A stretch of 56,676 bases of DNA, taken from Martelella radicis. GTDB taxonomy: Bacteria > Pseudomonadota > Alphaproteobacteria > Rhizobiales > Rhizobiaceae. The notes below the pieces were generated by a model. The model was not told where the DNA came from and did no database searches. It worked only from the letters and a program-made list of their open reading frames with translations. The stretch lies in contig NZ_JACIDZ010000019.1 of assembly GCF_014196625.1 (NCBI RefSeq), positions 1-56,676 on the forward strand, read 5' to 3'. The translations under genes were made by a program, and so were the position numbers. Positions 18,947 through 38,715 of the stretch are shown in pieces (position 1 is the first letter of the stretch; every line of letters begins with the position of its first letter).

Positions 18947-18958
18947 TATGTATACATA
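18947..18958. promoter_or_regulatory. GntR operator candidate before the ligAB operon
   Basis: TATGTATACATA is a perfect 12-bp palindrome 84 bases upstream of the hydrolase start. The same core ATGTATACAT recurs at 19021, 19915 and 25793. GntR/FCD regulators typically bind short palindromes of this size. Confidence 0.75.
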
Positions 18959-19020: not shown

Positions 19021-19030
19021 ATGTATACAT
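19021..19030. promoter_or_regulatory. GntR operator candidate before gntR
   Basis: ATGTATACAT lies 50 bases upstream of the gntR start and 60-70 bases from the operator on the other side of the divergent region, so one GntR dimer or a looped pair could control both directions. It also contains an in-frame ATG that should not be mistaken for the gene start. Confidence 0.72.
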
Positions 19031-19080
19031 TAGGCGTTCATGACCCGGTCCAGCGGGTCGCATCAGGTCCGGAGGTAGGA

Positions 19081-19836
19081 ATGGACAGGCAAACGACGGC
19101 GAAGACCCACACGATGCGGGCGCTGGTGGAACTGCGCAAGCGGATTCTCGACGGCGCCATTCCGGGCGGCACGCGCCTGTTCGAGGTGGCGTTGGCCGAC
19201 GACCTTCAGATTTCGCGGACCCCCGTGCGCGAGGCAATGTCGCGTCTGGCCGAAGAGGGACTTCTGGAGCGCGCCCGCAGCGGTGGCTTTCTGGTTCGCA
19301 GCTTCGCCTATGCCGATGTGCTGGACACGATCGAACTGCGCGGCGTGCTGGAGGGGACGGCGGCGCGGCTTGCGGCCGAACGCGGGGCGAGCGAGAAGGA
19401 GCTGAAGGAGATATCCGCCATTGTCCGCGCGCTTGACGGCTGTGTCGGCGTTCATCCCGACGAGGTGGACTTCGAGACCTATTCGGAACTCAACAGCGAG
19501 TTTCACGATGCGCTTGCCGCCCTGCCGCGCTCGGCCACGCTGGAGCGCGAACTGGCCCGTGCCAAGCAATTGCCGTTTGCCTCGCCCTCTGCCTTCCTGC
19601 CGGACAAGACCAAGCTTTCCGACTTCCGCCGCTCGCTGCAGGTGGCCCAGGAGCAGCACCGCGAGATCGTCACCGCGATCGCGCAGCGACAGGGGTCGCG
19701 GGCGGAAGCCCTGACGCGCGAACATGCCTGCGCGGCGCGGCGAAACCTCGAATATATCTTCTCCAAGGACCGCAATCTCGTCAGCACCGTGCCCGGCCTT
19801 GCGCTGGTGGCGCCGAACGACCCGGCACTGCCCTGA
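19081..19836 (+). CDS. GntR-family (FCD) transcriptional regulator
   Basis: This 251-residue protein has an N-terminal winged helix ('LRKRILDGAIPGGTRLFEVALADDLQISRTPVREAMSRLAEEGLLE', typical GntR) and a C-terminal all-helical FCD ligand domain with metal-type His residues. The ATG at 19081 has GGAGGTAGGA upstream; the ATG at 19021 is inside the operator. It lies between the ligAB operon and ligM and is the likely regulator that binds ATGTATACAT, with an aromatic acid or ring-cleavage intermediate as effector. Confidence 0.9.
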   Translation: MDRQTTAKTHTMRALVELRKRILDGAIPGGTRLFEVALADDLQISRTPVREAMSRLAEEGLLERARSGGFLVRSFAYADVLDTIELRGVLEGTAARLAAERGASEKELKEISAIVRALDGCVGVHPDEVDFETYSELNSEFHDALAALPRSATLERELARAKQLPFASPSAFLPDKTKLSDFRRSLQVAQEQHREIVTAIAQRQGSRAEALTREHACAARRNLEYIFSKDRNLVSTVPGLALVAPNDPALP

Positions 19837-19914
19837 GCGCGCGTGCCAGTATCGCGAGAATTTGCAGGCGGGGTGATTTTTCCGCTTGCATTCTCGAGGC
19901 CGACTTGCAAATGT

Positions 19915-19924
19915 ATGTATACAT
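19915..19924. promoter_or_regulatory. GntR operator candidate before ligM
   Basis: ATGTATACAT is repeated exactly, 27 bases upstream of the ligM start and therefore overlapping or close to its promoter. It is embedded in an ATGT/ATTT AT-rich stretch. Confidence 0.72.
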
Positions 19925-19951
19925 TTTTTACGAGCTGGGAGGAGCGAGAAA

Positions 19952-21364
19952 GTGTCAGGTCAAAGCCTTTCGACTGTAATGAAGGGGTTTTCAAACCCTG
20001 TAGAGCTTTTGAGGAATTCGCGTTCGGGGATTTATGTATACCCCGTCGTGGCGCCTGAGTTTTCCAACTGGCGCAGCGAACAGATGGCATGGCGCCACAC
20101 CGCCGTGCTGTTCGACCAGACCCATCACATGGACGAGCTGATCGTCGAGGGTCCGGACGCCGAGGCGTTTCTCGCCTATGTTGGTATCAATGCGTTTTCG
20201 AATTTCGATCAGAACCGCGCCAAGCATTTCGTGCCGGTCACGCCCGCGGGCCATGTCATCGGCGACATGATCATCTTCCGCGAGCGCGAGGACAAGTTCG
20301 TGCTCGTCGGTCGTCAGCCGACCGCCAACTGGACCAAGTTCCAGGCCGCCATCGGCAAGTGGAACGTGCGCCTCATCCACGATCCGCGTTCGGATTCGCG
20401 GCCCGAGGGCGAGCGCGTGCTGCGCACCCACTATCGCTACCAGATCCAGGGTCCGGACGCGAACAAGATCCTCGACGCCATCAATGGCGGTCCGGTTCCC
20501 GAAATCAAGTTCTTCCATGTCGACTGGATCAATGTCGGCTCGAAGCGGGTGCAGGCGCTGCGCCACGGCATGGCCGGCGCGCCGGGCCTGGAAATCTGGG
20601 GTCCCTATTCCGACAAGGCCTATGTCCTGTCGGTCATCCTTGAAGCGGCGGCCAAGACCGGCGTCGATCTGCGCCGCGTCGGTTCGCGCGCCTATTCCAC
20701 CAACACGCTGGAATCCGGCTGGATTCCCTCGCCGCTGCCGGGCATCTATTCCGGCGACGGCATGATGGCCGACTATCGCGACTGGCTGGGCGCCGATGCC
20801 TATGAGGCCGTCGGTTCCATCGGCGGTTCCTTCGTCTCCGACAATGTCGAGGACTACTACACCAACCCGTTCGAGCTCGGCTACGGCTTCTATATCGGCT
20901 GGAAGAAGGATGATTTCATCGGCAAGGACGCGCTCGCCAAGCTGAAGGACGCGCCGACCAACCGCAAGAAGGTCACCTTCGAGTGGAACCCGGAAGATGT
21001 CCTGAAGGTCATCGCCTCGAATTTCGAGGACGGCACGCCCTACAAGTGGATCGATTTCCCGCAGCCGAACTATGCGTCGTCGACGGCCGACATGGTCATG
21101 AACGGCGACAAGATGGTCGGCATGTCGATGTTCAACGGCTATTCCTACAATGAGCGCCGGGTTCTCTCGCTCGGCGTCGTCAGCCCGGACGTCAATGTCG
21201 GCGACGTGCTGACGCTGAAATGGGGCGAGCCGGAGGCCACGCAGAAGACTTCGGTCGAGCCGCATCGCCAGGCCGAGATCCGCGTGCGCGTTTCGCCGAC
21301 GCCCTATGCGGCCGAGGCCCGCGAGAACTACGCCGACAGCTGGCGCACCAAGGCGAGCCGCTGA
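19952..21364 (+). CDS. ligM: LigM/DesA-type tetrahydrofolate-dependent O-demethylase
   Basis: This 470-residue protein of the GcvT fold opens with 'NPVELLRNSRSGIYVYPVVAPEFSNWRSEQMAWRHTAVLFDQTHHMDEL', which is very close to LigM of Sphingobium. LigM moves the methyl group of vanillate or 3-O-methylgallate to THF and gives protocatechuate or gallate plus 5-methyl-THF. I chose the GTG at 19952 because GGGAGGAG sits seven bases upstream and the family N-terminus begins there. A GntR operator is just upstream. The other folate enzymes needed to recycle the methyl group are close by (folD, purU, metF-like). Confidence 0.93.
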   Translation: MSGQSLSTVMKGFSNPVELLRNSRSGIYVYPVVAPEFSNWRSEQMAWRHTAVLFDQTHHMDELIVEGPDAEAFLAYVGINAFSNFDQNRAKHFVPVTPAGHVIGDMIIFREREDKFVLVGRQPTANWTKFQAAIGKWNVRLIHDPRSDSRPEGERVLRTHYRYQIQGPDANKILDAINGGPVPEIKFFHVDWINVGSKRVQALRHGMAGAPGLEIWGPYSDKAYVLSVILEAAAKTGVDLRRVGSRAYSTNTLESGWIPSPLPGIYSGDGMMADYRDWLGADAYEAVGSIGGSFVSDNVEDYYTNPFELGYGFYIGWKKDDFIGKDALAKLKDAPTNRKKVTFEWNPEDVLKVIASNFEDGTPYKWIDFPQPNYASSTADMVMNGDKMVGMSMFNGYSYNERRVLSLGVVSPDVNVGDVLTLKWGEPEATQKTSVEPHRQAEIRVRVSPTPYAAEARENYADSWRTKASR

Positions 21365-25792: not shown

Positions 25793-25802
25793 ATGTATAC
25801 AT
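25793..25802. promoter_or_regulatory. GntR operator candidate before the metF-like gene
   Basis: ATGTATACAT recurs here in a perfect 14-bp palindrome (AAATGTATACATTT, 25791-25804), 35 bases upstream of the metF-like start. This site and those at 18947, 19021 and 19915 share the full ten-base core. Confidence 0.75.
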
Positions 25803-25836: not shown

Positions 25837-26757
25837 ATGATTGGATTTCTGGGCAGGCGCGGCAAGCAGGCCGCCGCCGACAACGCCGCCATCGAGCCTT
25901 TGATAGAAGGTTTTTCGATCGAGGTCATGCCGCGCACCGCGGCCAAGGTGGATGATTTCAAGGCGTTGCTGCCGGCCGGTACCCGTGTATACATAGCCCA
26001 TATCGAAGGCACGCCGATCGAAGAGATGGTGGGCACCGCGCGGCGTCTGTCGGACGATGGTTTCCCGGTCATGCCGCATTTTCCCGCCCGCATCATCAAG
26101 GACAGGGCGACGCTGGAAGACTGGATCGCGCGCTATCAGGGCGAGGCCGGCGTCGACCAGGCGCTGTTGCTGGCCGGCGGCGTCGCCGCGCCGGTCGGCG
26201 AATTTCATTCCTCGATGCAGCTGATGGAAACCGGCCTGTTCGACAAGGCGGGGTTCCGGCGGCTTCATGTGGCCGGCCATCCGGAAGGCAACAAGGATAT
26301 CGATTCCGACGGGTCGACCGGCAATGTCGACGCCGCCCTCAGGTGGAAGCAGGACTTTGCCGAGCGCACCGACGCCGAAATGGCGATCGTCACCCAGTTC
26401 GCCTTCGAGGCGGCGCCGGTGCTGGCCTGGATCGAGCGGCTGCGTGGTTTCGGCGTCGACCTGCCCGTTCATGTCGGCATTGCCGGGCCGGCCAAGCTGC
26501 AGACGCTGATCAAGTTCGCGATCGCCTGCGGCGTCGGCTCGTCGCTCAAGGTGCTGCAGCGCCGGGCGATGGATGTGTCCAAGCTGGTGCTGCCCTATGA
26601 GCCGACGGATGTTCTTGCCGATTTCGCCGATGCGGCGAAACGGGATGGCGGCTCAGCCGTGGCCCAGATCCACTTCTTCCCGCTGGGCGGCATCGGCGCC
26701 TGCGCCAACTGGGCGGCCCGACGCAGCGCCGCCGCCCCCGCCTCGGCCGCCGTCTGA
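25837..26757 (+). CDS. metF: methylenetetrahydrofolate reductase-like protein
   Basis: This 306-residue TIM-barrel protein matches bacterial methylene-THF reductases ('IAHIEGTPIEEMVGTARRLSDDGFPVMPHFPARIIK', 'LLLAGG', 'AGHPEGNKDID', 'TQFAFEAAPVLAWIERLRGFGVDLPVHVGIAGP'). It belongs to the divergent branch found beside ligM, where it would oxidise 5-methyl-THF from O-demethylation to 5,10-methylene-THF rather than make methionine precursors. A GntR operator lies 35 bases upstream and a strong terminator follows. Confidence 0.9.
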   Translation: MIGFLGRRGKQAAADNAAIEPLIEGFSIEVMPRTAAKVDDFKALLPAGTRVYIAHIEGTPIEEMVGTARRLSDDGFPVMPHFPARIIKDRATLEDWIARYQGEAGVDQALLLAGGVAAPVGEFHSSMQLMETGLFDKAGFRRLHVAGHPEGNKDIDSDGSTGNVDAALRWKQDFAERTDAEMAIVTQFAFEAAPVLAWIERLRGFGVDLPVHVGIAGPAKLQTLIKFAIACGVGSSLKVLQRRAMDVSKLVLPYEPTDVLADFADAAKRDGGSAVAQIHFFPLGGIGACANWAARRSAAAPASAAV

Positions 26758-26805: not shown

Positions 26806-26842
26806 ACCGGTCCGTCTGTTAGAGCGACGGGCCGGTTTTTTT
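26806..26842 (+). terminator. rho-independent terminator after the metF-like gene
   Basis: ACCGGTCCGTC (26806-26816) pairs with GACGGGCCGGT (26826-26836, one mismatch) and is followed by TTTTTTTG. This is the clearest terminator in the window and closes the folate/O-demethylation unit. Confidence 0.9.
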
Positions 26843-27467
26843 GCGCAGGCCGCGTAAGTGAGTCCCGACGCGGCTGGTCAATCGTGCACTTTTCACGCAA
26901 AATGTATACGCAACCTGTTGATAGACTTTTTCCATTTTGTATATAAACATCGATTTTCTTCAAAATACGCGCTAATTTTGTTTATTTATTGAGTATACTG
27001 GGCTAAAGTATAAGCACGGTCAGATTGAAACATGTATCGGCGTATACATTGAGACCGGAGACCTCCGCGTTTGTTCCCGTCTGGGAGGTCGGGAAAATGG
27101 GCCTCAAAAGCCTGCGGAGGGACGAGATCGCGTCAGGCCTGAACGCCGTTTTCGACAGAGCGGGCGACGCGATACGAGGAGCAATTCCAGCCGGTGGGGT
27201 AGGCCGGCTGCGCATGCCCGCCCGGCCTGTGCCGGAAATTTAGCGGTTTTAGACAATGCTGTCCCGTTTCAGCGTCCGGTCTCTATTCGCGACGGATGTG
27301 CGGGAGGCGGTGTGCCCGGTTGCTGCGGCTATCTTAAGAGACTGAGCCGTCAGCCAGAAGGTCAACCACCCGGATAGAGGGGCTGCAGGGCCGCGCGCTC
27401 ATGGCGGACGTCGAGGACGGAGGAGGTCCGGGCATCCGTGTCACTGATCCTAGAGGGAGGAGAACAG
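26843..27467. promoter_or_regulatory. long control region before the Tct/amidohydrolase unit
   Basis: This 620-bp spacer has an AT-rich part (26880-27050) with degenerate GntR-type sites: ATGTATACGC at 26902-26911 and the pair ATGTAT...GTATACAT at 27032-27049. The second half is GC-rich, with no convincing gene. The reading frame 27025-27243 shows no family features. The promoter of the nine-gene unit should lie here. Confidence 0.5.
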
Positions 27468-28562
27468 ATGAAACTCAATGCGATTATCAGATCCGGCATG
27501 GCGGCGGTGTCCGTTGCCGCGATCATGCTGGCGGGAGGCGTCGCCGCCAAGGCCGATCCGATCGACCTGGAAGGCGAAACGGTGACGCTGGTGCACAATG
27601 TCGCGCCCGGCGGCGCAACGGCGATCAGCGCCCAGGTGCTGGCCGACGCCTGGTCCAAGACCATGGCGGATCATCCGACCATGGTGGTGCAGTCGGTCTC
27701 CGGCGGCGCGCTGACCAAGGGCATCGACTATGTCATGGACGCCCGGCCGGACGGCAAGACGCTCGGCTATCTCGCCTGGCAGGGCACGACGCGCATCCTC
27801 GATCCCGAAGTCCTGCAAATCCCGTTCCAAGATTTCGGCGTGATTGGCGGCATTGGCGGCTCCAACTTCCTGTTCCACGTCAGAACCGATGTTGGCGGCG
27901 GGATTGAAGACCGCGACGATCTCGCCAATCTCGACGGCGTCACGGTCGGCGTCTATTCGCCGCGCATGACCCAGGGCATGCAGACGGCCGCGGCGCTCGA
28001 TCTTCTCGGCGTCGACTGGACGTTCGTCTCGGGCATGCTTGGCGACGGCCCGCTTTATGCGGCGATGCAACGCGGCGAGATCGATGCCTATCCGGCCACC
28101 ACGTCCCAATACATCTCCGAACTCGGCGATGGTCCGATCGCCAGCGGCGAGACCATGGCGATCTGGCAGACGGGTCCGATCGAGGCGGACGGTTCGATGA
28201 AGCTCGATCCGGCGCTCGAAGGCGTGCCGACGGTTGGCGAATATATCGAAAAGGCGACCGGAAAGGCGCCGGAAGGACCGCTTTGGGATCTGATCATGTA
28301 TCACGCCCAGTCGTCCGCGCCGGTCAACTGGATCATCGTCGCGCCCCCCGGCACGCCGCAGGACCACCTCGACATGCTGCGCACGAGCTTCGATGAAGCG
28401 ACAGCCTCGCCGGACTATCTGGAAGCGGCCACCAAGGTCTATGGCTCGCCGCCGAATATCGTCCACTGGCAGGAGATGACCAAGATCATCAACGATGTCC
28501 AGAACACCTCCGAGGACATCAAGGACACGATGCGCCAGCTGGTCGAGCGGATCGAGCAGTAG
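27468..28562 (+). CDS. TctC/Bug-type tripartite tricarboxylate transporter substrate-binding protein
   Basis: This 364-residue protein has a signal peptide (about residues 1-30, ending AAKADP) and is secreted to the periplasm. Its 'VTLVHNVAPGGATAISAQVLADAWSKTMADHPTMVVQSVSGGALTKGIDYV' and 'VGVYSPRMTQGMQTAAALDLLGVDWTFVSG' fit the Bug fold, in which two domains clamp a carboxylate. It is longer than typical members by about 40 residues. GGGAGGAGAACAG precedes the ATG. It is the first gene of the transporter-amidohydrolase-ferredoxin unit. An aromatic or other carboxylic acid is the probable ligand. Confidence 0.87.
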   Translation: MKLNAIIRSGMAAVSVAAIMLAGGVAAKADPIDLEGETVTLVHNVAPGGATAISAQVLADAWSKTMADHPTMVVQSVSGGALTKGIDYVMDARPDGKTLGYLAWQGTTRILDPEVLQIPFQDFGVIGGIGGSNFLFHVRTDVGGGIEDRDDLANLDGVTVGVYSPRMTQGMQTAAALDLLGVDWTFVSGMLGDGPLYAAMQRGEIDAYPATTSQYISELGDGPIASGETMAIWQTGPIEADGSMKLDPALEGVPTVGEYIEKATGKAPEGPLWDLIMYHAQSSAPVNWIIVAPPGTPQDHLDMLRTSFDEATASPDYLEAATKVYGSPPNIVHWQEMTKIINDVQNTSEDIKDTMRQLVERIEQ

Positions 28563-28867
28563 CAGGCAGACCAAGGGCGGCGCATGTATCGCCGCCCCGA
28601 GAGCCGGAGCCTGGAAAGGAGCACCGGGCGGTCGATCGCGCATTGATGCGATCGCCCCTTGCCGTCGCCGATCGCATCGCCGGCAGCGCAATGCGCTCGA
28701 GGTCAGGCCCGCGGTCTCCATCGGTTCTACCGATTTGTTTTCGTGCCCTTTTTTCGGAGGTGGCGCTCGCCATTCGCGGCGGAGCGCAATCTGAAGAGGT
28801 CTATTTCGTCATCTTTCGCTCAAATGGCGAGCGATGATCAGCCAAGCTGACCTGGAGCTGGAACTTC
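28563..28867. other. spacer between tctC-like and tctAB genes
   Basis: This 305-base stretch contains no supported gene. A stem-loop (GGGCG...GATCGC with GCGATC...CGCCC around 28627-28657) may attenuate or process the transcript so that the binding protein is made in excess over the permease. Confidence 0.5.
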
Positions 28868-30847
28868 ATGTTCGATTCATTCATGACAGGGCTGTCGCTG
28901 GTTCTGTCCTTTCCCGGTTTTCTTTATCTGCTGGCAGGCATTGCCGTCGGCCTCTGGCTCGGCATCGTCCCGGGCCTCGGCGGGGTTACCGGCATGGTGG
29001 TGCTTCTGCCGCTCACCTTCGGCATGGATCCGGCCTCGGGCCTTGCCATGCTGCTCGGCATGTTCGCGGTGGTCTCCACCTCCGATACGATCACATCGGT
29101 CATGCTCGGCATTCCCGGCACGATCGCCAGCCAGGCGACCGTGATCGACGGCAATGCCATGGCCAAGCGCGGCCTGGCGCAGACGGCGTTCGGCGCGGCC
29201 TTTGTCAGTTCGGCCTTTGGCGGGGTGCTCGGCGGCCTGGCGATGGCGGCCTCGCTGCCCTTTGCGCTGGCGATCATTCTCGCTTTCGGCTCGCCGGAAT
29301 TCTTCCTTCTGTCGCTGCTCGGCCTTCTCATGGTCGGCGCGGTCAGCGGCAATGCGGTCTCAAAGGGGCTTGGGGCGGCTGTTCTCGGGCTGATGCTCTC
29401 CCAGATCGGCTATCCCGTCGCAAGCTCCATGCCGCGCTATTTCTTCGGCGAACGCTCGCTGCTTGACGGTCTGCCGCTGGTGCCGGTCATCCTCGGGCTC
29501 TTTGGCCTGCCGGAAATGATGGATCTTGCCGCCCGGCGCACCGCGATCGCCCATCTCAGCGACGAGCATACGGCCGACGACAGTATCCTGAGCGGTGTGC
29601 GCGCGGCGATCCGCAATCGCTGGCTGGTGATCCGCTGTTCGCTGATGGGCGTCTATGTCGGCATGTTGCCGGCCATCGGCTCATCCGTGGTCGACTGGCT
29701 TGCCTATGGGCACGCCACGCAGAGCTGCAAGACCGATCCGCAATTCGGCAAGGGCGATGTGCGCGGCGTGATCGCGCCGGAGGCGGCCAATAACGCCGTG
29801 CTTGGCGGGTCGCTGATCCCGACGCTCGCCTTCGGCATTCCCGGCAGCGGCGCCATGGCGGTGCTTCTGGGCGCGTTGACCATCCACGGCTTCTCGCCCG
29901 GCCGTAACATGCTGAGCGACAATCTCGACATCACCTTCTCGATGGTGTGGACGATCATCATCGCCAATATCATCGGTGCCGCGGCGTTGATGATGTGGGG
30001 CCGCCAGGTGGCGCGCGCCGCGTTTGTCGACGGCAATTTCATCGTGCCGGCGGTGATCCTGTTCATCTTCATGGGCTCCTGGGTCTGGCAGCCGGGCATG
30101 TTCACCTGGATCACGCTTTTAGGGGTCGGTCTGCTCGGCTACATCATGAAGGCTGCCGGCTGGCCGCGCCCGCCCTTCATTCTCGGCTTCGTGCTCGGGC
30201 CTGTCCTCGAAAACGCCATGTCGATCACATGGCAGAGCTACACGGTGATGGAAGTGATCACGCGCCCCACGGTGATCGGCCTCGTCATCGTGCTTGCTCT
30301 CGTCTTCTTTTTCGCGCTGCGCTCGACCCGTCAGGGGCTTGCTGCCCACGCGATCGAGGATACCGTGGAGAGCAAGGCAAGCCTGATCCTGTCGTCAACA
30401 CTGGCGGTGGCGCTCATCGCCCTCTTCGGCGCGGCGGTCTGGATGGCGCGCGACTGGAAGCTCCTCGCCAAGGTCTCGCCGATGGCCTTTGGCCTGGCGG
30501 GGATCGTCATCATGGGCTTTGTCCTGTTTCAGGACCGCAACCGGCTTCAGGCGATCGCCGCCGCGCGGCGGGCAGGTGATGCGCTCGCGGGTGGAACCGT
30601 GCAGCAGTTCATTGCCGCGAACCAGCGGCAAATCATTACCTTTCTGGCGATCGCGCTGATGGCGGCGCTGACGCCGTGGCTCGGCACCTATGCTGCGATC
30701 CTCGGTTTCGCCGCGATCTATACGGCGCTTTGGGGCCGGTTCCGGTGGTGGGTCGTTGCCCTCTACACGGCGGGCCTCGGGGCGGTGCTCTATTTCCTTT
30801 ACGACCGCCTTCTTCATGCCCCGTTCGAATTACCGTTCTTCATGTGA
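28868..30847 (+). CDS. TctA-TctB fusion permease
   Basis: This 659-residue membrane protein has about sixteen hydrophobic helices. Residues 1-500 match the large TctA permease ('AGIAVGLWLGIVPGLGGVTGMVVLLPLTFGMDPASGLAMLLGMFAVVSTSDTITSVMLGIPGT', 'LAFGIPGSGAMAVLLGALTIHG'), and the C-terminal 150 residues have four helices like the small TctB subunit. Normal systems encode these separately, so this is a natural fusion. It pairs with the upstream TctC-type binding protein. The next gene follows after 15 bases. Confidence 0.88.
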   Translation: MFDSFMTGLSLVLSFPGFLYLLAGIAVGLWLGIVPGLGGVTGMVVLLPLTFGMDPASGLAMLLGMFAVVSTSDTITSVMLGIPGTIASQATVIDGNAMAKRGLAQTAFGAAFVSSAFGGVLGGLAMAASLPFALAIILAFGSPEFFLLSLLGLLMVGAVSGNAVSKGLGAAVLGLMLSQIGYPVASSMPRYFFGERSLLDGLPLVPVILGLFGLPEMMDLAARRTAIAHLSDEHTADDSILSGVRAAIRNRWLVIRCSLMGVYVGMLPAIGSSVVDWLAYGHATQSCKTDPQFGKGDVRGVIAPEAANNAVLGGSLIPTLAFGIPGSGAMAVLLGALTIHGFSPGRNMLSDNLDITFSMVWTIIIANIIGAAALMMWGRQVARAAFVDGNFIVPAVILFIFMGSWVWQPGMFTWITLLGVGLLGYIMKAAGWPRPPFILGFVLGPVLENAMSITWQSYTVMEVITRPTVIGLVIVLALVFFFALRSTRQGLAAHAIEDTVESKASLILSSTLAVALIALFGAAVWMARDWKLLAKVSPMAFGLAGIVIMGFVLFQDRNRLQAIAAARRAGDALAGGTVQQFIAANQRQIITFLAIALMAALTPWLGTYAAILGFAAIYTALWGRFRWWVVALYTAGLGAVLYFLYDRLLHAPFELPFFM

Positions 30848-30862
30848 TGAGGAGACTGAAAC

Positions 30863-31945
30863 ATGCTGACAGAGCTTGATGCCGAAACAAGGCCGGAACC
30901 GGCGGCGGGAATCGGCGCCATCGATTGCGACGTGCATCCACGCAGTCCCGAAATGGCCGACCTGATCCCGTTCGTCGACAGTTACTGGAAGGACATGATG
31001 CCCTATCGCAATATCGGGCATATGGAACTGATGTCCTATCCGTTCTCGACCAAGCCCTTCCGGGCGGAAGGGGCGGATGGCGGGGTCGCAAGCCCCGCGC
31101 GGCTGGCGGAAGCCCATCTCGACCCTATGGGCCTTTCGGCGGCGATCCTCAACGTCGTCAACGGCGTCCAGGCGTTGTTCGACCCCTATATGCAGGCGAT
31201 GATGTGCCAGGCGACCAATCGCTGGCTGGCGGCGGAGTGGCTGGATCGCGATCCGCGCCTGCGCGCCGCGCTGCTGGTGCCCTTCCGTCACCCGGAAGAG
31301 GCGGTGGCGGAGATCAGGCGCTATGCCGACGACCGCCGCTTCGTCCAGATCCTGGCGATCTGCATGGGCGAGGCGACGCTCGGCCAGCGCCAGTTCTGGC
31401 CGATCTACAAGGCGGCATCCGATGCCGGCTTTGCCCTCTCGATCCACCCGGGCAGCAATTACCGCCACGCGCCGACGCAATCCGGCTTCATGTCCTATCT
31501 GGTCGAGGAACAGGTCAACTGGTCGCAGGGCTTTGCCAGCCAGGCGGCAAGCCTTCTGAGCGAGGGCGTGCTGACCGAGTTTCCCGACATGAAGGTGGTG
31601 ATGGCGGAAAGCGGGATTTCCTGGCTCTTCGGCGTTTCCTGGCGCATGGCGAAGGACTGGCGCGGCTGCCGCGTCGAGGTGCCGTGGCTGAAGGAGGGCC
31701 CGGACAAGATCATGGAGCGGCAGTTGCGCTTCACCCTGCAGCCCTTCGATCTTCCGGTCGAGCCGGAAGAGGTCGAAGCCGTTGTCGAATGCATCGGCGG
31801 GCCGGAGCTGCTGCTTTATTCATCCGATTTTCCGCATGATCACGGACCGACCGCCGCCGGATGGCCGAAGGGGCTTTCCGCCGATCTTGCCAATGCCATC
31901 TGCCGCGAGAATGTCCTTGCCACCTATCCGAGACTGGAGGTCTGA
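30863..31945 (+). CDS. amidohydrolase-fold (Amidohydro_2) protein, first copy
   Basis: This 360-residue TIM-barrel protein of the amidohydrolase superfamily has metal-site candidates 'DCDVHP' (Asp21, Asp23, His25), His195 in 'SIHPGS', and Asp322/His325 in 'SSDFPHDHG'. At the strand-6 position, where decarboxylases such as LigW carry a His, this protein has Glu249 ('MAESG'). In its partner protein two additional His lie in 'EEHYAFSH'; here the aligned segment is 'EEQVNWSQ', so this copy may be less active. It is followed after one base by its paralogue and then by ferredoxin-type genes. Confidence 0.87.
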   Translation: MLTELDAETRPEPAAGIGAIDCDVHPRSPEMADLIPFVDSYWKDMMPYRNIGHMELMSYPFSTKPFRAEGADGGVASPARLAEAHLDPMGLSAAILNVVNGVQALFDPYMQAMMCQATNRWLAAEWLDRDPRLRAALLVPFRHPEEAVAEIRRYADDRRFVQILAICMGEATLGQRQFWPIYKAASDAGFALSIHPGSNYRHAPTQSGFMSYLVEEQVNWSQGFASQAASLLSEGVLTEFPDMKVVMAESGISWLFGVSWRMAKDWRGCRVEVPWLKEGPDKIMERQLRFTLQPFDLPVEPEEVEAVVECIGGPELLLYSSDFPHDHGPTAAGWPKGLSADLANAICRENVLATYPRLEV

Positions 31946-31946
31946 C

Positions 31947-33047
31947 ATGACTGTTGCCGAACTGGACAGGCCCGACACGGCCAAGACGAAACTGGGGATT
32001 GTCGATTGCGACATTCACCCCGCGATGACCGAAAGGAACGAACTCTCCCGCTTCATGCCGCTGCGCTGGCGCGAGCACGTGCGCGATTTCGGCATGCGGT
32101 CGGGCGGTTCGCTCGTCGGCATGCTGCAATATCCGCGGCTGAACCATGGCGGCATGCGCCAGGATGCCTATCCGCCGGAGGGCGGTCCGCCGGCCTCCAG
32201 CCTCGCCTTCCTGCAGAAGCAGCTTCTGGACGAGCTCAATATAGAGTTTGGCATGCTGCAGGCGCTGAACCCCGGACCGTCACTGCAGAACCTCGAATTA
32301 AGCGCGGCCGTCTGCGCGGCGATCAACGACTGGCAGGTCGACAAATGGCTGGCGCCCGAACCGCGCCTGAAGGGCGGCATCTCCATTGCCCAGGAAGACG
32401 CCGAAGCCTCGGTGCGCGAAATCGAGGAGCGGTTGAAGGACAAGCGCTTCGCCCAGCTGCAATTCGTGCCGCGCAGTCTCGAACCGGCCGGCCGCAAGCG
32501 CTACTGGCCGATCTACGAGATCGCCGAGGCGCATGACCTGCCGATCGCCGTCCATCCGGCGGCAACGGGCTGGCACGCCAATACCGGCGCGGGCTGGGCC
32601 TCCTTCTATGTCGAGGAGCACTATGCCTTTTCGCATTCGATCCAGACCATCCTGATCTCGATGATCTTCGAGGGCGTGTTCGAGCGGTTCCCGAAGCTCA
32701 AAGTGGTGCTGGTCGAGGGCGGCTTCGCCTGGCTGCCGTCGCTGATGTGGCGCATGGACCGGGAATGGGAGCGCATGCGCGGGGAAGTGCCGCATGTGAA
32801 GCGCCGCCCATCCGACTATATCCGCCGCAATATCTGGATCACCACGCAGCCGATCGAGGAACCGCCGAACGTCCGGCACATGAACAACCTCCTTCAGTGG
32901 ATCGGGGCGGACCGGCTGATGTTCTCCACCGACTATCCGCACTGGGACTTCGACCATCCGGACCGGGCCTTCCGCGTCGGGCTGAGCGAAGAGGCAAAGC
33001 GCGGCATCATGCGTGACAACGCCTTTGCCGTTTACGGACTGGGTTGA
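31947..33047 (+). CDS. amidohydrolase-fold (Amidohydro_2) protein, second copy
   Basis: This 366-residue paralogue of the preceding protein is also a TIM-barrel amidohydrolase. Candidate metal ligands are 'DCDIHP' (Asp20, Asp22, His24), His203 ('AVHPAA'), His225 and His230 in 'EEHYAFSH', Glu257 ('LVEGG') and Asp329/His332 in 'STDYPHWDFDHP'. GGAGG precedes the ATG, and the stop is nine bases before the Rieske gene. An amidohydrolase-fold non-haem diiron monooxygenase (PtmU3, platensimycin biosynthesis) is known, and the electron-transfer genes here suggest that one of these two proteins acts similarly. Confidence 0.87.
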   Translation: MTVAELDRPDTAKTKLGIVDCDIHPAMTERNELSRFMPLRWREHVRDFGMRSGGSLVGMLQYPRLNHGGMRQDAYPPEGGPPASSLAFLQKQLLDELNIEFGMLQALNPGPSLQNLELSAAVCAAINDWQVDKWLAPEPRLKGGISIAQEDAEASVREIEERLKDKRFAQLQFVPRSLEPAGRKRYWPIYEIAEAHDLPIAVHPAATGWHANTGAGWASFYVEEHYAFSHSIQTILISMIFEGVFERFPKLKVVLVEGGFAWLPSLMWRMDREWERMRGEVPHVKRRPSDYIRRNIWITTQPIEEPPNVRHMNNLLQWIGADRLMFSTDYPHWDFDHPDRAFRVGLSEEAKRGIMRDNAFAVYGLG

Positions 33048-33056
33048 GGAGAGGCC

Positions 33057-33470
33057 ATGACCGATCACATCATCTGCAAGGTCGATGAAATTCCCGAGGG
33101 AAAAGCGAAAAGGGTCGAGGTCGCCGGCCGCGTCATTGCCATCTTCAACCTCGGTGATCGCTTCGCGGCGATCACCAACACGTGCCCGCATGAGGGGGCG
33201 GAACTCTGTCACGGCAGGGTCGCCGCGCTCGTGAATGCCGATGGCCCAGGCGCCTACCGCACCGAGGACGAGAAGATCATGGTCCGCTGCCCCTGGCACG
33301 GCTGGGAGTTCGATCTTGAGAACGGCCGCTCCTACTGCGACCCGAGCCGGATGCGGGTGAAGATCTTCGACGTCAAGGTGGCGCATGGCCAGAGCCTGGC
33401 GGAAGGGCCTTATCGCGCCGAAATATTCGAGGTCCGCACAGAGGATGATTATGTCGTCCTCACCATCTGA
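33057..33470 (+). CDS. Rieske-type [2Fe-2S] ferredoxin
   Basis: This 137-residue protein has the two Rieske ligand pairs, 'TCPHEGAEL' (Cys43, His45) and 'CPWHGWEF' (Cys78, His81), in a small soluble protein with no catalytic domain. Rieske ferredoxins pass electrons to oxygenases. Here the genes on either side are the amidohydrolase-fold pair and a ferredoxin reductase, and there is no Rieske non-haem iron oxygenase in the window. It should therefore serve a different type of terminal enzyme. Confidence 0.92.
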   Translation: MTDHIICKVDEIPEGKAKRVEVAGRVIAIFNLGDRFAAITNTCPHEGAELCHGRVAALVNADGPGAYRTEDEKIMVRCPWHGWEFDLENGRSYCDPSRMRVKIFDVKVAHGQSLAEGPYRAEIFEVRTEDDYVVLTI

Positions 33471-33951
33471 AAACGGGCGCCTTCCTGTGCTTCCGCTTAT
33501 GGGCGGGTGCCAGTGCGGGGCGCTCAGATACCGGGTGAGCGGGGCGCCGCTCACCTTCTACCTCTGCCATTGCGCGAGCTGCCAGCGCCAGTCCGGCAGC
33601 GCGTTCGGCGAAAGCCTGATGTTTTCCTGCGAGGACCTGACGCTCGACGGCACGCCGCAGGAGCGCTGGACGGTCGGCGGTTCCGGCGTGCCGATCCGGC
33701 AGGTTTTTTGCGGGACGTGCGGCGTGCGGCTGACCCATCAGCGCAAGGACAGTCCGGTTCTGGTGGTCAAGCCCGGCACGCTCGACGATCCGTCCTGGCT
33801 TTTTCCGGCGGCGGAAATCTTCACCGCGTCCCGCCAGCCATGGCTCTCGCCGTTACCCGGCGTGGCGCAATATTCCGGGAGCCCGGACATGGAGCGTCTG
33901 AAAGTCGACTGGGCGCGGTGGCTTGCCGGGCATGAGGAGGCCGGCCGATGA
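33451..33951 (+). CDS. GFA/CENP-V-fold zinc protein
   Basis: This 166-residue protein has the zinc ligands of the glutathione-dependent formaldehyde-activating enzyme family, in order: 'CQCG' (20-23), 'CHCASC' (39-44) and 'CGTCG' (87-91). Some relatives make S-hydroxymethylglutathione from formaldehyde, though many are of unknown role. The ATG at 33451 has GAGG six bases upstream and overlaps the end of the Rieske gene. Its stop overlaps the reductase start (ATGA). If the oxygenase unit removes methyl groups as formaldehyde, this gene would handle that product. Confidence 0.85.
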   Translation: MSSSPSENGRLPVLPLMGGCQCGALRYRVSGAPLTFYLCHCASCQRQSGSAFGESLMFSCEDLTLDGTPQERWTVGGSGVPIRQVFCGTCGVRLTHQRKDSPVLVVKPGTLDDPSWLFPAAEIFTASRQPWLSPLPGVAQYSGSPDMERLKVDWARWLAGHEEAGR

Positions 33952-35153
33952 GCGGTATCGTGGTTGCGGGCGCGGGCCAGGCCGGTCTGGCGCTGGTGGC
34001 GAAGCTGCGCGCCGAGGGCTATCACGGCCCGCTGAAGCTTCTTGGCGAAGAGGCCTGGCCACCCTATCAGCGTCCGCCGCTTTCGAAGAAATTCCTGCTG
34101 GGGGACCTGGCGCGGGAGCGTCTCTATTTGCGCTCAAGGGAGTTCTACGCCGAGCACGATATCGATCTGAGGCTCGGCGCGCGTGTCGAGGCGATCGACC
34201 GAGAAGCAGGGACGGTCACGTTCGGTGATGAGGCACTTGCCTATGACAGGCTGGTACTGACGACCGGTGCAACCCCCCGGCGGCTACCGACAGCAATCGG
34301 CGGCGACCTTGGCAACGTCTTCACCCTGCGCGGGATCGACGATGTCGATGCCATGGCGCCGCTCTTCGTCCCCGGGGCGCGGCTTCTGGTGGTCGGCGGC
34401 GGCTATATCGGCCTGGAGGCGGCGGCCGTTGCCGCGCGCTCCGGTCTCAAGGTGACCCTGATCGAAAGCGCGCCGCGCATTCTCGGCCGCGTCGCGGCGA
34501 AGGAAACGGCGGATTATTTCCGCGCCCTTCACCGCGAAAACGGCGTCGACCTGCGAGAGGGAACGCGGCTTCGCCGGCTTCTTGGCGGCAAGACAGTGGA
34601 GGCCGCGGAACTTGCCGATGGCGCGACGGTTTACGTCGATCTGGTGATTGTCGGCATCGGCGTTCAGCCCGCGACGGCGCTTGCCGAAGAGGCGGGGCTG
34701 GTGGTTGACAACGGCATTGCCACGGACGCCTTCGGGCGCACGGCGGATCCGGCGATCTGGGCAGCGGGGGATTGCGCCAGCTTTCCAAACGCGGGCGGCA
34801 GGCTTCGGCTGGAGAGCGTGCAGAACGCCATCGAACATGCCGAATGCGTGGCCAGGAACCTGCTGGGCGCAGAAATGCCCTACCGGCCCGAGCCCTGGTT
34901 CTGGTCGGATCAGTATGAGGTCAAGCTGCAGATTGCCGGTCTCAATACAGGCTATGACCGAGTCGTGGTGCGCAAGGGAGACCGCGAAGGTTCGGTCTCG
35001 CACTGGTATTTCACCGGCAGGCGCTTCATCGCCATCGACGCGATGAACGATCCGCGCGCCTACATGACCGGAAGGCGGTTGCTTGGCGCGGGGATCAGCC
35101 CGGACCCTGACGATCTGGCCGCAGCCGACCTGAAGACGCTGACAGCGGCCTGA
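33948..35153 (+). CDS. FAD-dependent ferredoxin reductase
   Basis: This 401-residue flavoprotein resembles rubredoxin/putidaredoxin-type reductases. It has an FAD-binding 'GAGQAGLALVAKL', an NAD(P)H-binding 'VVGGGYIGLEAAAVAARSG', a second FAD motif 'WAAGDCASF' and a C-terminal reductase domain starting near 'RLESVQNAIEHAE'. It would take electrons from NAD(P)H and pass them to the Rieske and/or plant-type ferredoxin beside it. Confidence 0.93.
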   Translation: MSGIVVAGAGQAGLALVAKLRAEGYHGPLKLLGEEAWPPYQRPPLSKKFLLGDLARERLYLRSREFYAEHDIDLRLGARVEAIDREAGTVTFGDEALAYDRLVLTTGATPRRLPTAIGGDLGNVFTLRGIDDVDAMAPLFVPGARLLVVGGGYIGLEAAAVAARSGLKVTLIESAPRILGRVAAKETADYFRALHRENGVDLREGTRLRRLLGGKTVEAAELADGATVYVDLVIVGIGVQPATALAEEAGLVVDNGIATDAFGRTADPAIWAAGDCASFPNAGGRLRLESVQNAIEHAECVARNLLGAEMPYRPEPWFWSDQYEVKLQIAGLNTGYDRVVVRKGDREGSVSHWYFTGRRFIAIDAMNDPRAYMTGRRLLGAGISPDPDDLAAADLKTLTAA

Positions 35154-35177
35154 GCCCCAACAAGGAGAAACCTGGAA

Positions 35178-35501
35178 TTGGTGAAGATTATCTATATCGA
35201 GCATGCCGGGAAGCGCCACGAGCTTGACGTCGCCGCGGGCCAGAGCGTCATGGAGGGCGCGCGCGACAATGGGGTCAACGGCGTTGTCGCCGAATGCGGC
35301 GGTTGCTGTTCCTGCTCCACCTGCCACGTCTATGTGGCCGAGGACTGGTTCGACCGTCTGCCGCCGATCGAGCCGATGGAAGAGGACATGCTCGATTTCG
35401 CGCCGGGCATGGAGCCCGGCCGCTCGCGGCTTTCCTGTCAGTTGACCGTCACCGAAGAGCTTGACGGGCTGACGGTTCAGGTTCCCGCCGAACAGGCGTG
35501 A
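35178..35501 (+). CDS. [2Fe-2S] ferredoxin, adrenodoxin/putidaredoxin type
   Basis: This 107-residue protein has cluster cysteines at 40, 46, 49 and 87 (C-x5-C-x2-C-x37-C, in 'CGGCCSCSTC' and 'LSCQL'), typical of ferredoxins that serve monooxygenases. The start is TTG at 35178 with GTG directly after it; AAGGAG lies ten bases before the TTG. It is the last gene of the unit. Three stops in and around 35501 separate it from the convergent LysR gene. Confidence 0.92.
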   Translation: MVKIIYIEHAGKRHELDVAAGQSVMEGARDNGVNGVVAECGGCCSCSTCHVYVAEDWFDRLPPIEPMEEDMLDFAPGMEPGRSRLSCQLTVTEELDGLTVQVPAEQA

Positions 35502-35504
35502 ACC

Positions 35505-36707
35505 TCACTCAGAACCAGGAAGCGAAGCCGCCTTGTCGCGCAGAAGCTTCAGGAACAGCGCCTGGGCGGCGGTCGGCAGGAAGCCGGCGCGCAAGGTCAG
35601 CCCGATCGGGCGCGCGCTTGCCGGAAGTTCGAACGGCAGGGCGACCATCAGCCCGTGGCCGATTTCCGCCTCCGCCTGCCGTTTCGAGACGCAGCCGAGA
35701 TGATCGCTCTTTTCCAGAAGTTCGCGCATCAGGATCACCGAGCGTGTTTCCACCAGCCGTGATGGAACGGCAAGCCCGGCGGCCTCGAAAATGCGGTCGA
35801 AATGGCTGCGGATCGGCGTGCCTTCAGGGGCGACGACGAAGGGATAGCGGGCAAGAGCCTCGAATGTCGGCTGCAACAGCGTGCCATCCTTCCTCTCGCG
35901 CAGAAGCGGATGCCCGGGCCCGGCGACCAGAACCACGCTGTCGGTAAACAGTTCCTCCTGGACAATATCGCCGATCGGCGCCGGATCGCGCAGCGCGCCG
36001 ATCAGGAAGTCCGTCTCGCCGCGCCTGAGCCCGGCAAGCAGGTCGTCGTAATCGCCTTCCAGCACATCGACCGGGATCGCGCGACCGAGCGCGCGAAAGG
36101 CGACGATCGCATCCGGCAGCACGCAGGCGCGCGACAGTGGCATGGCGCCGACGACGATCCGGCCGGTCTCCCGCTTCATCGCCTCCGCCAGATCGGCGTC
36201 CGCCTGAGCGAATTCGGCAAAGGCGAGCCGCGCGGCCTGCGCGAGCGCGGATGCCGCGCGGGTGGCGACGATGCCGAAGGAGGTGCGCTCGAACAAAGGA
36301 CGCTCCGCCTCGCTTTCAAGCTGGCTGACGGCGCGGTGAACCGTCGGCTGGGCAAGGCCGAGCCGCTTGGCGGCAAGCGTGAAGTTCTGGGTTTCGGCAA
36401 CGGCGATCAGAGCAAGCAGTTGCGCGCGCGTGACCGTCACCTCCAGGCGCGGCGCGACATCGGCGAGCGCGGGATCGAGATAGGCGAAAGCGCGCCTGAC
36501 TCGGCGTGCAAGCGTCTCGCCGGCCTCGGTGACGAAGAGCCCCTGGGGCGTGCGCGAAAAGAGCGTCGCCCCGGCAAGGCTTGCGATCTTGCCCAGCGCC
36601 TGGGTCACGGCCGGTTGCGAGACGAAGCACAATTCTGCCGCCCGCGTGACCGAATGCGTCTCGGCGACGGCCAGGAAGACCCTGAGATGGCGAAGATTGT
36701 AGGGCAA
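35505..36707 (-). CDS. LysR-type regulator with two HTH domains
   Basis: This 400-residue protein is longer than the usual 300-residue LysR form because the N-terminus has two winged-helix domains: residues 5-63 ('LRVFLAVAETHSVTRAAELCFVSQPAVTQALGKI') and 94-152 ('LLALIAVAETQNFTLAAKRLGLAQPTVHRAVSQL'). The substrate-binding domain follows from about residue 175. The gene is the second in a minus-strand pair with the DUF1932 dehydrogenase. An inverted repeat with LysR-like spacing before galB (37783-37859) makes the gal operon a likely target. Confidence 0.87.
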   Translation of the reverse strand: MPYNLRHLRVFLAVAETHSVTRAAELCFVSQPAVTQALGKIASLAGATLFSRTPQGLFVTEAGETLARRVRRAFAYLDPALADVAPRLEVTVTRAQLLALIAVAETQNFTLAAKRLGLAQPTVHRAVSQLESEAERPLFERTSFGIVATRAASALAQAARLAFAEFAQADADLAEAMKRETGRIVVGAMPLSRACVLPDAIVAFRALGRAIPVDVLEGDYDDLLAGLRRGETDFLIGALRDPAPIGDIVQEELFTDSVVLVAGPGHPLLRERKDGTLLQPTFEALARYPFVVAPEGTPIRSHFDRIFEAAGLAVPSRLVETRSVILMRELLEKSDHLGCVSKRQAEAEIGHGLMVALPFELPASARPIGLTLRAGFLPTAAQALFLKLLRDKAASLPGSE

Positions 36708-36791: not shown

Positions 36792-37685
36792 TCAGTCTTC
36801 GGCGCGGGAATTGCTCTTTGCCGAAAGGATCAGTCGAACGCGCTCCGCGAGGTCATCGTCTCTTGCCGTCTTCAGCTCATAGCCCCCGATTTCCGCCTGC
36901 CATGCCGCGGTTGCTGCGCTCATGCGCGGTTCAAGTCCGAGATCGCTCACGGTTGCCGCGACCTCGCGCATTTCCGCGGCGCGCCGTGTGCCGTGCACCA
37001 TCATCCGCTCGAGGCAGTAGGCGGCCTTTTTCGGCCAGTCGATCTGCGGATCGGAGGCGGAAAGCGAGGCGAGAACCGCAGCGCTGACGCCCGCCTTTTC
37101 GGCGGCGAGAAAACACTCCGCCATCAGCGCTTCCGTGCCCTTGATCATCACCGAGCGGATCATCTTCACCGAAGAGGCATCGCCGATCTCAGGGCCGGTC
37201 ACCCGTCCGTTCATGCCAAGGCCTGCCATCGCCTCCGCGCCTTTTCTCGCGTGCGGACCCGAGACGAGGCACGGCGTTTCGTGGCGTTTCGGGTGGATCG
37301 GGCTCATGATCGCGACATCGACGTAACGCGCGCCGGCGGCATCGATCAACGCCGCGTTACGGCGCTTGGTCTCCGGCGAACAGGAATTGCCGTCGAGATA
37401 GAGCGTGCCGGGCCTGATATGCGGCGCGGCCGCCTCTGCAGCGGAAAATGCGTTGTCGGCGGTGACCAGGCTGAAGACGAGATCGCTTCGCTGCAGCAGA
37501 GCGGCGGAAGACGGGGCGCAGAAGACGCCGCGCTCGTCGCAGGCCTCGGTGATTGCTTCTGCCGTGTCGGCCCGCAGCGTCTTGATATCGAAGGCGGCAA
37601 GGGTCGCGGCGATGCCCGCCGCCGCCCAGCCGTCCGCGATTGCGCGCGCGGCCTCGCCGAAACCGATAAATCCGATGGCTGTCAT
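36792..37685 (-). CDS. DUF1932 NAD(P)-binding dehydrogenase
   Basis: This 297-residue protein has an N-terminal Rossmann domain ('IGFIGFGEAARAIADGW') and a C-terminal DUF1932 domain as in 6-phosphogluconate/3-hydroxyisobutyrate dehydrogenase-like enzymes ('PIHPKRHETPCLVSGPHA', 'SSVKMIRSVMIKGTEALMAECFLAAEKAGV'). The substrate is unknown; next to galB-D, an oxo- or hydroxy-diacid intermediate is plausible. The ATG at 37685 has GGAGGAAGA upstream. It is divergent from galB and upstream of the LysR gene in the same direction. Confidence 0.84.
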   Translation of the reverse strand: MTAIGFIGFGEAARAIADGWAAAGIAATLAAFDIKTLRADTAEAITEACDERGVFCAPSSAALLQRSDLVFSLVTADNAFSAAEAAAPHIRPGTLYLDGNSCSPETKRRNAALIDAAGARYVDVAIMSPIHPKRHETPCLVSGPHARKGAEAMAGLGMNGRVTGPEIGDASSVKMIRSVMIKGTEALMAECFLAAEKAGVSAAVLASLSASDPQIDWPKKAAYCLERMMVHGTRRAAEMREVAATVSDLGLEPRMSAATAAWQAEIGGYELKTARDDDLAERVRLILSAKSNSRAED

Positions 37686-37782
37686 GGCTCTTCCTCCGTT
37701 GGTGTCCGCCCTCTCGGCAAACCGGAACCGACATCTAGAACCACGCGGCGGGGCAAAGGCCATTCAAAAGCCCGGCGCGGCT

Positions 37783-38674: not shown

Positions 38675-38715
38675 GGCGGCGGGAAACGCCTGAAGAAGAA
38701 AGGGGAGGAACAGGA

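Follow-up and report, generated by a model that had tools for sequence, protein, structure and literature searches.

An amidohydrolase-related dinuclear oxygenase of the AibH1H2 type in Martelella radicis, with a probable link to methoxy-aromatic catabolism

Published amidohydrolase-related oxygenases and the Martelella pair

Amidohydrolase-related dinuclear oxygenases (AROs) were described as a class between 2021 and 2024 (PMC7782822, PMC10401708, PMC10811679); the name, the tie to small Rieske genes and oxidative N-dealkylation by SfbO are found in PMC10811679. For AibH1H2GF, the 2-aminoisobutyrate (Aib) monooxygenase of Rhodococcus wratislaviensis, activity was reported to need all four of H1, H2, Rieske protein and reductase, with AibH2 holding two Fe and AibH1 one Zn (PMC7782822). 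A later study reported a requirement for Mn, located a Mn/Fe centre in AibH2, described diminished activity for the D342A variant of AibH2, counted, in one survey, 555 ARO candidates in which the set of six ligands is complete, and stated that 90% of AibH2-like genes adjoin a small Rieske gene (PMC10401708). Native substrates of other AROs are described as not readily inferred from gene neighbourhoods (PMC10401708, PMC10811679). Here we analyze an ARO locus of Martelella radicis. The window, meaning the whole stretch of DNA analyzed, is contig NZ_JACIDZ010000019.1 (56,676 nucleotides; contig C19 of a 4.99-Mb genome), and the two amidohydrolase-fold proteins under study, designated H1 and H2, are encoded in a plus-strand unit of eight genes.

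Sequence searches of the PDB gave AibH2 as the best match for H2 (E 5e-93; 42% identity on the alignment) and AibH1 entries for H1 (E 5e-61; 31% identity). Structure prediction of both proteins had been proposed in the first-pass annotation of this DNA. When the resulting AlphaFold models (mean pLDDT 84.9 for H2 and 83.2 for H1) were searched with Foldseek, AibH2 chains came first for H2 (8fuo_D, E 6e-35, TM 0.85) and AibH1 chains first for H1 (8ful_G, E 1.9e-32, TM 0.88). PtmU3 (PDB 6omp), which the same annotation had used as its precedent, appeared at rank 37 (E 1.1e-15) in the fold search with H2 and at rank 21 in that with H1. As an amidohydrolase-fold dinuclear monooxygenase, PtmU3 is a precedent in fold and kind. 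It is, however, the more distant one, since AibH1, AibH2 and the 8sm6-8sm9 proteins all outrank it for both subunits in sequence and fold, and PMC10401708 presents it as having no association with an H1-like protein.

On the alignment, residues D22, H24, H203, E257, D329 and H332 of H2 correspond to the AibH2 ligands D25, H27, H211, E265, D337 and H340, and D334 corresponds to the second-sphere residue D342. The metal-type residues of H1 (D23, H25, H195, E249, D322 and H325) are likewise all present, in agreement with the earlier reading that both proteins keep such residues. That reading had treated the two alike, which proved incorrect: only H2 has the full AibH2 signature together with the second-sphere Asp, and H1 has His at the D342 position, the same as AibH1. 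The possibility that both subunits are catalytic was ruled out on this ground. Judged by these residues, only H2 is expected to bear a dinuclear Mn/Fe or Fe2 site, with H1 as its AibH1-like partner. Among 195 homologs from 91 loci (near-copies included), the DHHEDH set plus the seventh Asp occurs in 99/99 H2-type proteins, some of them near-copies; the six ligand-type residues are kept in 93/96 H1-type proteins, with Asp at the seventh place in 0/96. Note that the H1 and H2 labels in this survey were set by the better tblastn score and are not independent of the motif.

A small Rieske ferredoxin gene, which in an ARO locus is looked for within three genes, lies 9 bp downstream of H2. Our confidence that H1H2 is an ARO of the AibH1H2 type is very high; the class assignment, which rests on sequence, predicted fold, metal ligands and gene order, is near certain. 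Because the pair is homologous to AibH1/AibH2, whose monooxygenase activity is proven in print, the core oxygenase inference is well supported. The heteromeric amidohydrolase-fold terminal oxygenase fed by ferredoxins and a reductase, as the first-pass annotation had pictured it, therefore stands in the form of AibH1/AibH2 homologs, but its proposal of a possible new oxygenase system does not, as the three papers cited above had already published the class. An identity as LigI, LigJ or LigW was also considered for the pair and rejected: AibH proteins rank far higher and LigW-type entries lower, and no entry named LigI or LigJ occurs in the PDB sequence match lists of H1 and H2. The genome encodes seven PF04909 members, the pair included, of which the one on contig C27 is nearer to 4mup than to LigI.

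To place the pair among its relatives, one genome for each of 84,980 species was scanned, and 78 loci were taken from the best 80 of 582 confirmed matches. Some of the relatives' contigs are short, and absences from those loci are not firm. An H1-type open reading frame (ORF) lies directly upstream of H2 in 77/78 loci, the exception being L054, in which H1 is cut at the contig edge; a count of 78/78 was set aside because the H1 query matches H2 itself. By tblastn, a Rieske gene was found in 63/78 loci, within 150 bp in 50, and CxH...CxxH is kept in 63/63. A Rieske count of 91/91 from an iterated profile was discarded, the profile having drifted onto amidohydrolase ORFs. Flavin adenine dinucleotide (FAD) reductases like that of the unit were found by tblastn in 2/78 loci, and the second ferredoxin likewise in 2/78 (8/91 and 3/91, respectively, with the iterated profile, for which drift was unchecked for those two). 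That homologous clusters might lack the redox genes had been named in advance as an argument against an oxygenase, and the outcome is mixed: the Rieske gene is mostly retained, but the FAD reductase and second ferredoxin are not. On two annotated plasmids, one of Sulfitobacter and one of Mesorhizobium, an FAD-dependent oxidoreductase lies near the ARO, as does a protein annotated as a non-heme iron oxygenase ferredoxin subunit.

Among named relatives the closest is Martelella lutilitoris GH2-6: its H2 is 95% identical, and in its 21-kb stretch the 19 genes shared with the window keep the same order. ARO neighbours elsewhere are diverse and include sugar and peptide ABC genes, dihydroxyacetone kinase, a GMC oxidoreductase and a glycosidase. 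Tandem H1-H2-H1'-H2'-Rieske sets, with two ARO pairs per Rieske gene, occur in Rhizobiaceae (L028, L029, L030, L040, L060, L069 and L070, of which L030 and L069 are one region). An ARO pair with a Rieske gene is also present outside Pseudomonadota, in a metagenome-assembled genome labelled Candidatus Eremiobacterota (L056).

The unit resembles the AibH1H2GF cluster in its adjacent PF04909 H1-H2 genes, with matching subunit identities and ligands, in the small Rieske ferredoxin and then a reductase after the pair, and in the permease and LysR gene of the cluster (PMC7782822, PMC10401708). According to the same papers, AibF is a flavin mononucleotide (FMN) protein with a 2Fe-2S domain, whereas the reductase here is of the FAD type (Pyr_redox_2 plus Reductase_C), accompanied by a separate putidaredoxin-type Fer2 protein, and does not have the AibF-type FMN/2Fe-2S composition. 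An amino acid permease there contrasts with a tripartite tricarboxylate transporter (TTT) here, a GFA protein is present here, and amino acid catabolism there contrasts with an aromatic and one-carbon neighbourhood here. A scan of 24 window genes, namely the 8 of the unit and 16 of their neighbours, gave no match to serine hydroxymethyltransferase (AibC). SfbO and the proteins of 8SM7, 8SM8 and 8SM9 are alike in fold and in their genetic link to a Rieske protein, and oxidative N-dealkylation by SfbO is chemically close to the O-dealkylation proposed below (PMC10811679). The six ligands and a PHWD motif are common to H2, SfbO and 8sm7, the latter two being those aligned, although the identity of H2 to them is lower (34.8% to SfbO and 38.8% to 8sm7).

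The eight-gene unit, its DNA sites and LigM

All eight plus-strand genes (8/8) were confirmed by profile search of their proteins at or very near positions 27468-35501 (Table 1). The contiguous unit of eight named genes described earlier is thus present, with families matched and only TctC and TctB below cut-offs. Its spacing is operon-like: from TctAB to the last ferredoxin the intergenic gaps are 15, 1, 9, about 25 (the GFA start is uncertain), -4 and 24 bp, and the TctC-TctAB gap is 305 bp. The convergent LysR gene ends 3 bp past the stop of the last ferredoxin gene; its 400-aa product has an unusual duplicated helix-turn-helix arrangement. Terminator-like stems in the scanned region numbered 11, against 8.5 expected in shuffles (no enrichment), and a sigma-70 promoter scan found no candidate.

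Families of Rieske oxygenase alpha subunits, P450s and flavin monooxygenases had no match among the eight unit proteins, as had been stated from the DNA before. VanA_C had no match in the genome, nor was any P450 found there by a profile search whose control gave matches in 7/14 genomes. The usual partner of a putidaredoxin-type reductase/ferredoxin pair is a P450. Because no P450 was found in the genome, the pair encoded here has none to serve.

Upstream of the unit lie LigB- and LigA-like genes, a GntR gene, LigM, a TRAP transporter, PurU and a MetF-like gene. The MetF-like protein (25837-26757) is very divergent (TIGR00676 20.9 bits, cut-off 293.7; no Pfam match), and the listed LigM ORF begins upstream of its homology region, which starts near 19964. 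Downstream are the PcaQ-like LysR gene, a DUF1932 dehydrogenase, a PIG-L protein, an extradiol dioxygenase, a CHA aldolase and a 4-oxalomesaconate tautomerase, the last two both above cut-offs. We take the PIG-L protein to be GalB-like, by position and family. The extradiol dioxygenase (38710-39687) is of the catechol-2,3-dioxygenase (VOC) type and stands within this GalB-like/aldolase/tautomerase operon, a position at which one would expect a gallate dioxygenase of class III. Its grouping is kept in genome G070 (L124, L029), and its nearest structure, 9wgj, was deposited as a catechol 1,2-dioxygenase. The DUF1932/6PGDH-like dehydrogenase (36792-37763) is also kept with Gal-type genes in G070 (L029; 43% identity).

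With each strand counted separately, the motif TGTATACR matches 12 times in the window versus 0.22 expected in shuffles, at seven places (18949, 19022, 19916, 25794, 25986, 26903 and 27041); the copy at 25986, inside the MetF-like coding sequence, is probably not regulatory. The perfect palindrome ATGTATACAT has four copies in the 4.99-Mb genome, all in this window, located at the LigAB, GntR, LigM and MetF-like genes. Genome-wide, the pattern WTGTATACAW is found 8 times, compared with 2 for a control pattern, and 4 of the 8 sites are in the window. A stricter ten-base form, TNGTATACNA, allowing one mismatch, was not enriched (3 matches versus 2.0 expected), with one match at 26937, before TctC. 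Among the related loci, the 1 kb upstream of the operon contains a TGTATACR-type site in 5/5 of those with TctAB versus 2/73 of those without; in L036, L037 and L071 it occupies the gap that separates the operon from its upstream neighbour. The palindrome core also recurs at the GntR-LigM regions (L133, L132) of the genomes that contain L037 and L071.

GntR proteins bind GT-AC palindromes of the GTATAC sort. The regulator encoded next to LigAB, which we take to be of the FCD subtype, is the candidate binder. A small tree of ten GntR proteins assigned it to neither the ARO-linked nor the LigM-linked type; the near ones are 46-61% identical to it and four others 31-34%. From the shared sites, the ARO operon is predicted to belong to a GntR-type regulon together with LigM, LigAB and the MetF-like gene.

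LigM recurs with AROs. A LigM homolog (E <= 1e-100) was found in 20/20 ARO genomes searched, which had been picked for the AROs nearest to that of the window (24 loci, one left out, several sharing a genome); in 11/20, M. lutilitoris among them, it lies on the same contig within about 11 kb of the ARO. ARO and LigM are arranged differently in Martelella, in G070 and in the Neorhizobium group; therefore, proximity has survived rearrangement. In a family sample (two were drawn, differing slightly, at 297 and 294 genomes), LigM at E <= 1e-180 was present in 7/8 ARO genomes versus 54/286 others, with a Fisher p of 8e-5 that includes the window's own genome, ignores kinship and assumes that the eighth ARO genome, G152, belongs to the second sample. 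Kinship of the LigM/ARO genomes weakens any p-value. Four other same-genus genomes sampled had neither ARO nor LigM at the thresholds used.

The GFA gene is present in 5/5 TctAB loci versus 0/73 others of the 78 loci, and the nearest structure to its product is the CENP-V/GFA protein 8ajq. This co-occurrence of GFA and TctAB is one lineage: the H2 proteins of all six TctAB loci, counting the window, group in a single clade of seven rows, the seventh being L038, without TctAB. GFA also adjoins the ARO in one more genome of the family (L034).

Table 1. Genes and DNA sites of the ARO locus and its upstream region, in window positions
Feature	Positions	Strand	Remarks
TctC-like periplasmic solute-binding protein	27468..28562	+	22.9 bits, below cut-off 27; structure match TctC 6hke, E 9.5e-5
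Fused TctA-TctB permease, TTT	28868..30847	+	TctA 381.9 bits (strong); TctB 26.4, below cut-off 29.1
H1, AibH1-like partner subunit, amidohydrolase fold	30863..31945	+	PF04909 125.1 bits, cut-off 26.4; predicted mononuclear or structural metal site
H2, AibH2-like catalytic ARO subunit	31947..33047	+	PF04909 170.5 bits, cut-off 26.4; predicted dinuclear Mn/Fe or Fe2 site
Small Rieske [2Fe-2S] ferredoxin, AibG-like role	33057..33470	+	PF00355 62.3 bits
GFA/CENP-V domain protein	33499..33951	+	GFA 97.6 bits; start codon uncertain, candidates 33385 to 33535
FAD ferredoxin reductase, putidaredoxin-reductase/BphA4 type	33948..35153	+	Pyr_redox_2 207.9 bits, Reductase_C 100.7 bits
Putidaredoxin/FdVI-type [2Fe-2S] ferredoxin	35178..35501	+	TTG start; Fer2 40.8 bits
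Convergent LysR regulator, PcaQ-like	35505..36707	-	208.4 bits, below cut-off 303.8; two HTH_1 matches
GntR-family regulator, candidate palindrome binder	19021..19836	+	best model phnR_burk 99.7 bits, below cut-off
LigM, tetrahydrofolate-dependent vanillate/3-O-methylgallate O-demethylase	19886..21364	+	620.9 bits, cut-off 580; PDB 5x1i E 3e-160; outside the unit
Terminator-like stem plus T run	26814..26841	+	between MetF-like gene and ARO operon; suggestive only
Palindrome TGTATACA	18949..18956	none	between abh-LigA-LigB genes (-) and GntR (+)
Palindrome TGTATACA	19022..19029	none	overlaps first listed GntR start codon (true start uncertain)
Palindrome TGTATACA	19916..19923	none	just upstream of LigM homology region
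Palindrome TGTATACA	25794..25801	none	about 35 bp upstream of MetF-like ORF
Half-degenerate operator-like site TGTATACG	26903..26910	none	upstream of TctC; kept in M. lutilitoris (L036)
Half-degenerate operator-like site CGTATACA	27041..27048	none	upstream of TctC; kept in M. lutilitoris (L036)

Proposed reaction and competing explanations

From the genes, homologies, predicted folds, ligands, gene order and shared DNA sites demonstrated above, we propose the following scheme, in which O2 activation, the heteromer and the electron route are predicted by homology. The TctC/TctAB transporter would import a carboxylate. Electrons would pass from NAD(P)H to the FAD reductase, then to the putidaredoxin-type and/or Rieske ferredoxin and on to an H1H2 heteromer, in which H1 would be a non-catalytic partner and the dinuclear Mn/Fe (or Fe2) centre of H2 would activate O2 and hydroxylate a C-H bond of the substrate. 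The most likely reaction would be hydroxylation of a methoxy carbon, i.e. O-demethylation, for example of syringate to 3-O-methylgallate; para-demethylation of veratrate or trimethoxybenzoate is an alternative example. Formaldehyde released in this way would be handled by GFA, and LigM would then take the next methyl group via tetrahydrofolate. LigM and DesA would act at the same class of pathway step, LigM from within the same putative regulon, but they belong to the family GCV_T, which is unrelated to AROs. Their chemistry is methyl transfer to tetrahydrofolate, with no use of O2.

Placement of the operon in one GntR-type regulon alongside LigM, LigAB and the MetF-like gene is the ground for taking a methoxylated aromatic acid as the substrate, and the case for it is circumstantial. 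An imported aromatic acid had been proposed before; it is plausible and now has regulatory support of an independent kind. In SYK-6, syringate is reported to be converted to gallate by DesA and LigM, and gallate to 4-oxalomesaconate by DesB and LigAB (PMC6888825). With the DesA model, LigM was the only match in the genome and was below cut-off. Since DesA above cut-off, VanA_C and P450 all lack a match, the search of the genome yielded no standard enzyme that would take the first methyl group from syringate, and we infer that the ARO is a candidate by elimination. In CC-licensed PMC literature, no link between an ARO and methoxy-aromatic catabolism was found in titles or abstract openings. For a marine lignin consortium in which 1.16% was Martelella, no ligM was counted in the metagenome, and this has little bearing on the present strain (PMC10269927).

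Taken together, an ARO with its own importer, acting in a methoxy-aromatic pathway, is probably the best explanation of the whole, and the link of the operon to methoxy-aromatic catabolism is likewise rather likely; O-demethylation as the reaction is put forward tentatively, with doubt slightly prevailing. Several observations weigh against this explanation. Both sites on the ARO side (26903 and 27041) have one degenerate half. Because they fall in one clade of seven H2 rows, the TctAB loci are not independent. In L050 and L051 the site is less convincing, lying about 830-840 bp upstream of TctC, past a divergent GFA gene. In a Rhizobiaceae clade with LigM near the ARO, the sites are at LigM or TRAP genes and not at the ARO, and no site was present in the scanned stretch of L046, L066 or L070 of that clade. 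LigM is on another contig in L071 and L037, the two closest non-Martelella relatives, and LigM itself might remove both methyl groups. Two ring-hydroxylating alpha subunits are encoded on other contigs of the genome. GFA would fit oxidative demethylation if it bound formaldehyde via glutathione, a prediction made from the family name. Finally, the ARO activities reported in PMC7782822 and PMC10811679 concern Aib and sulfonate buffers, and no aromatic acid.

In one competing explanation, the ARO would be a monooxygenase of a non-aromatic imported acid, with its adjacency to the LigM cluster fortuitous and the GTATAC sites a core shared by related GntR regulators. The wide variation of ARO neighbours among genomes and the position of LigM elsewhere in the closest non-Martelella relatives fit such an enzyme, as does the occurrence of same-subfamily GntR proteins near the ARO and near LigM in the genomes of those relatives, where each may have its own regulator; the sole H1H2-type ARO with a native substrate reported in PMC7782822 uses Aib. 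Against it stand the genome-wide confinement of the perfect palindrome to this cluster, the recurrence of the site upstream of related operons, the excess of LigM in ARO genomes of the family sample (7/8 versus 54/286, kinship ignored) and the four sampled same-genus genomes with neither gene at the thresholds used. We consider it unlikely, though it is the strongest competitor. Hydroxylation of the ring of an aromatic acid, for example of vanillate to 3-O-methylgallate, followed by LigM and LigAB, would agree with acceptance of 3-O-methylgallate by LigM (by family name) and with a gallate-type end product, for which the 4-oxalomesaconate tautomerase and CHA aldolase above cut-offs are suited and which SYK-6 converts to 4-oxalomesaconate (PMC6888825). 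However, reported ARO reactions hit aliphatic C-H bonds (PMC7782822, PMC10811679), and ring hydroxylation leaves GFA unexplained; we hold it to be improbable.

That the pair are ordinary mononuclear-metal decarboxylases or hydrolases, with the redox genes serving something else, is very improbable indeed. Gamma-resorcylate and 5-carboxyvanillate decarboxylases do share the fold, and some decarboxylase entries outrank PtmU3 for H2. Mononuclear PF04909 decarboxylases (LigW/gamma-resorcylate) nevertheless rank below every AibH and 8sm6-8sm9 entry, with matches much weaker in both sequence and fold, the H2 ligand set is complete with the D342 equivalent, and the H1-H2-Rieske grouping is widespread.

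AROs are widespread. For one clade, a concrete substrate class that can be tested emerges from the shared operator-like site, LigM and the lack of any detected P450 or VanA in the genome. If the methoxy-aromatic assignment is wrong, the locus remains an ordinary, well-formed ARO locus. A broader reading, about which we are more doubtful than about O-demethylation itself, is that this clade is a further class of bacterial aryl O-demethylase beside the Rieske (VanA), P450 (GcoA) and tetrahydrofolate-dependent (LigM, DesA) enzymes: a dinuclear Mn/Fe or Fe2 enzyme is predicted to remove the first methyl of a di- or trimethoxylated lignin acid as formaldehyde and LigM the next, under the same GntR operator. 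If true, a dinuclear Mn/Fe or Fe2 enzyme would join the few bacterial demethylases of methoxy-aromatic compounds that matter for lignin conversion.

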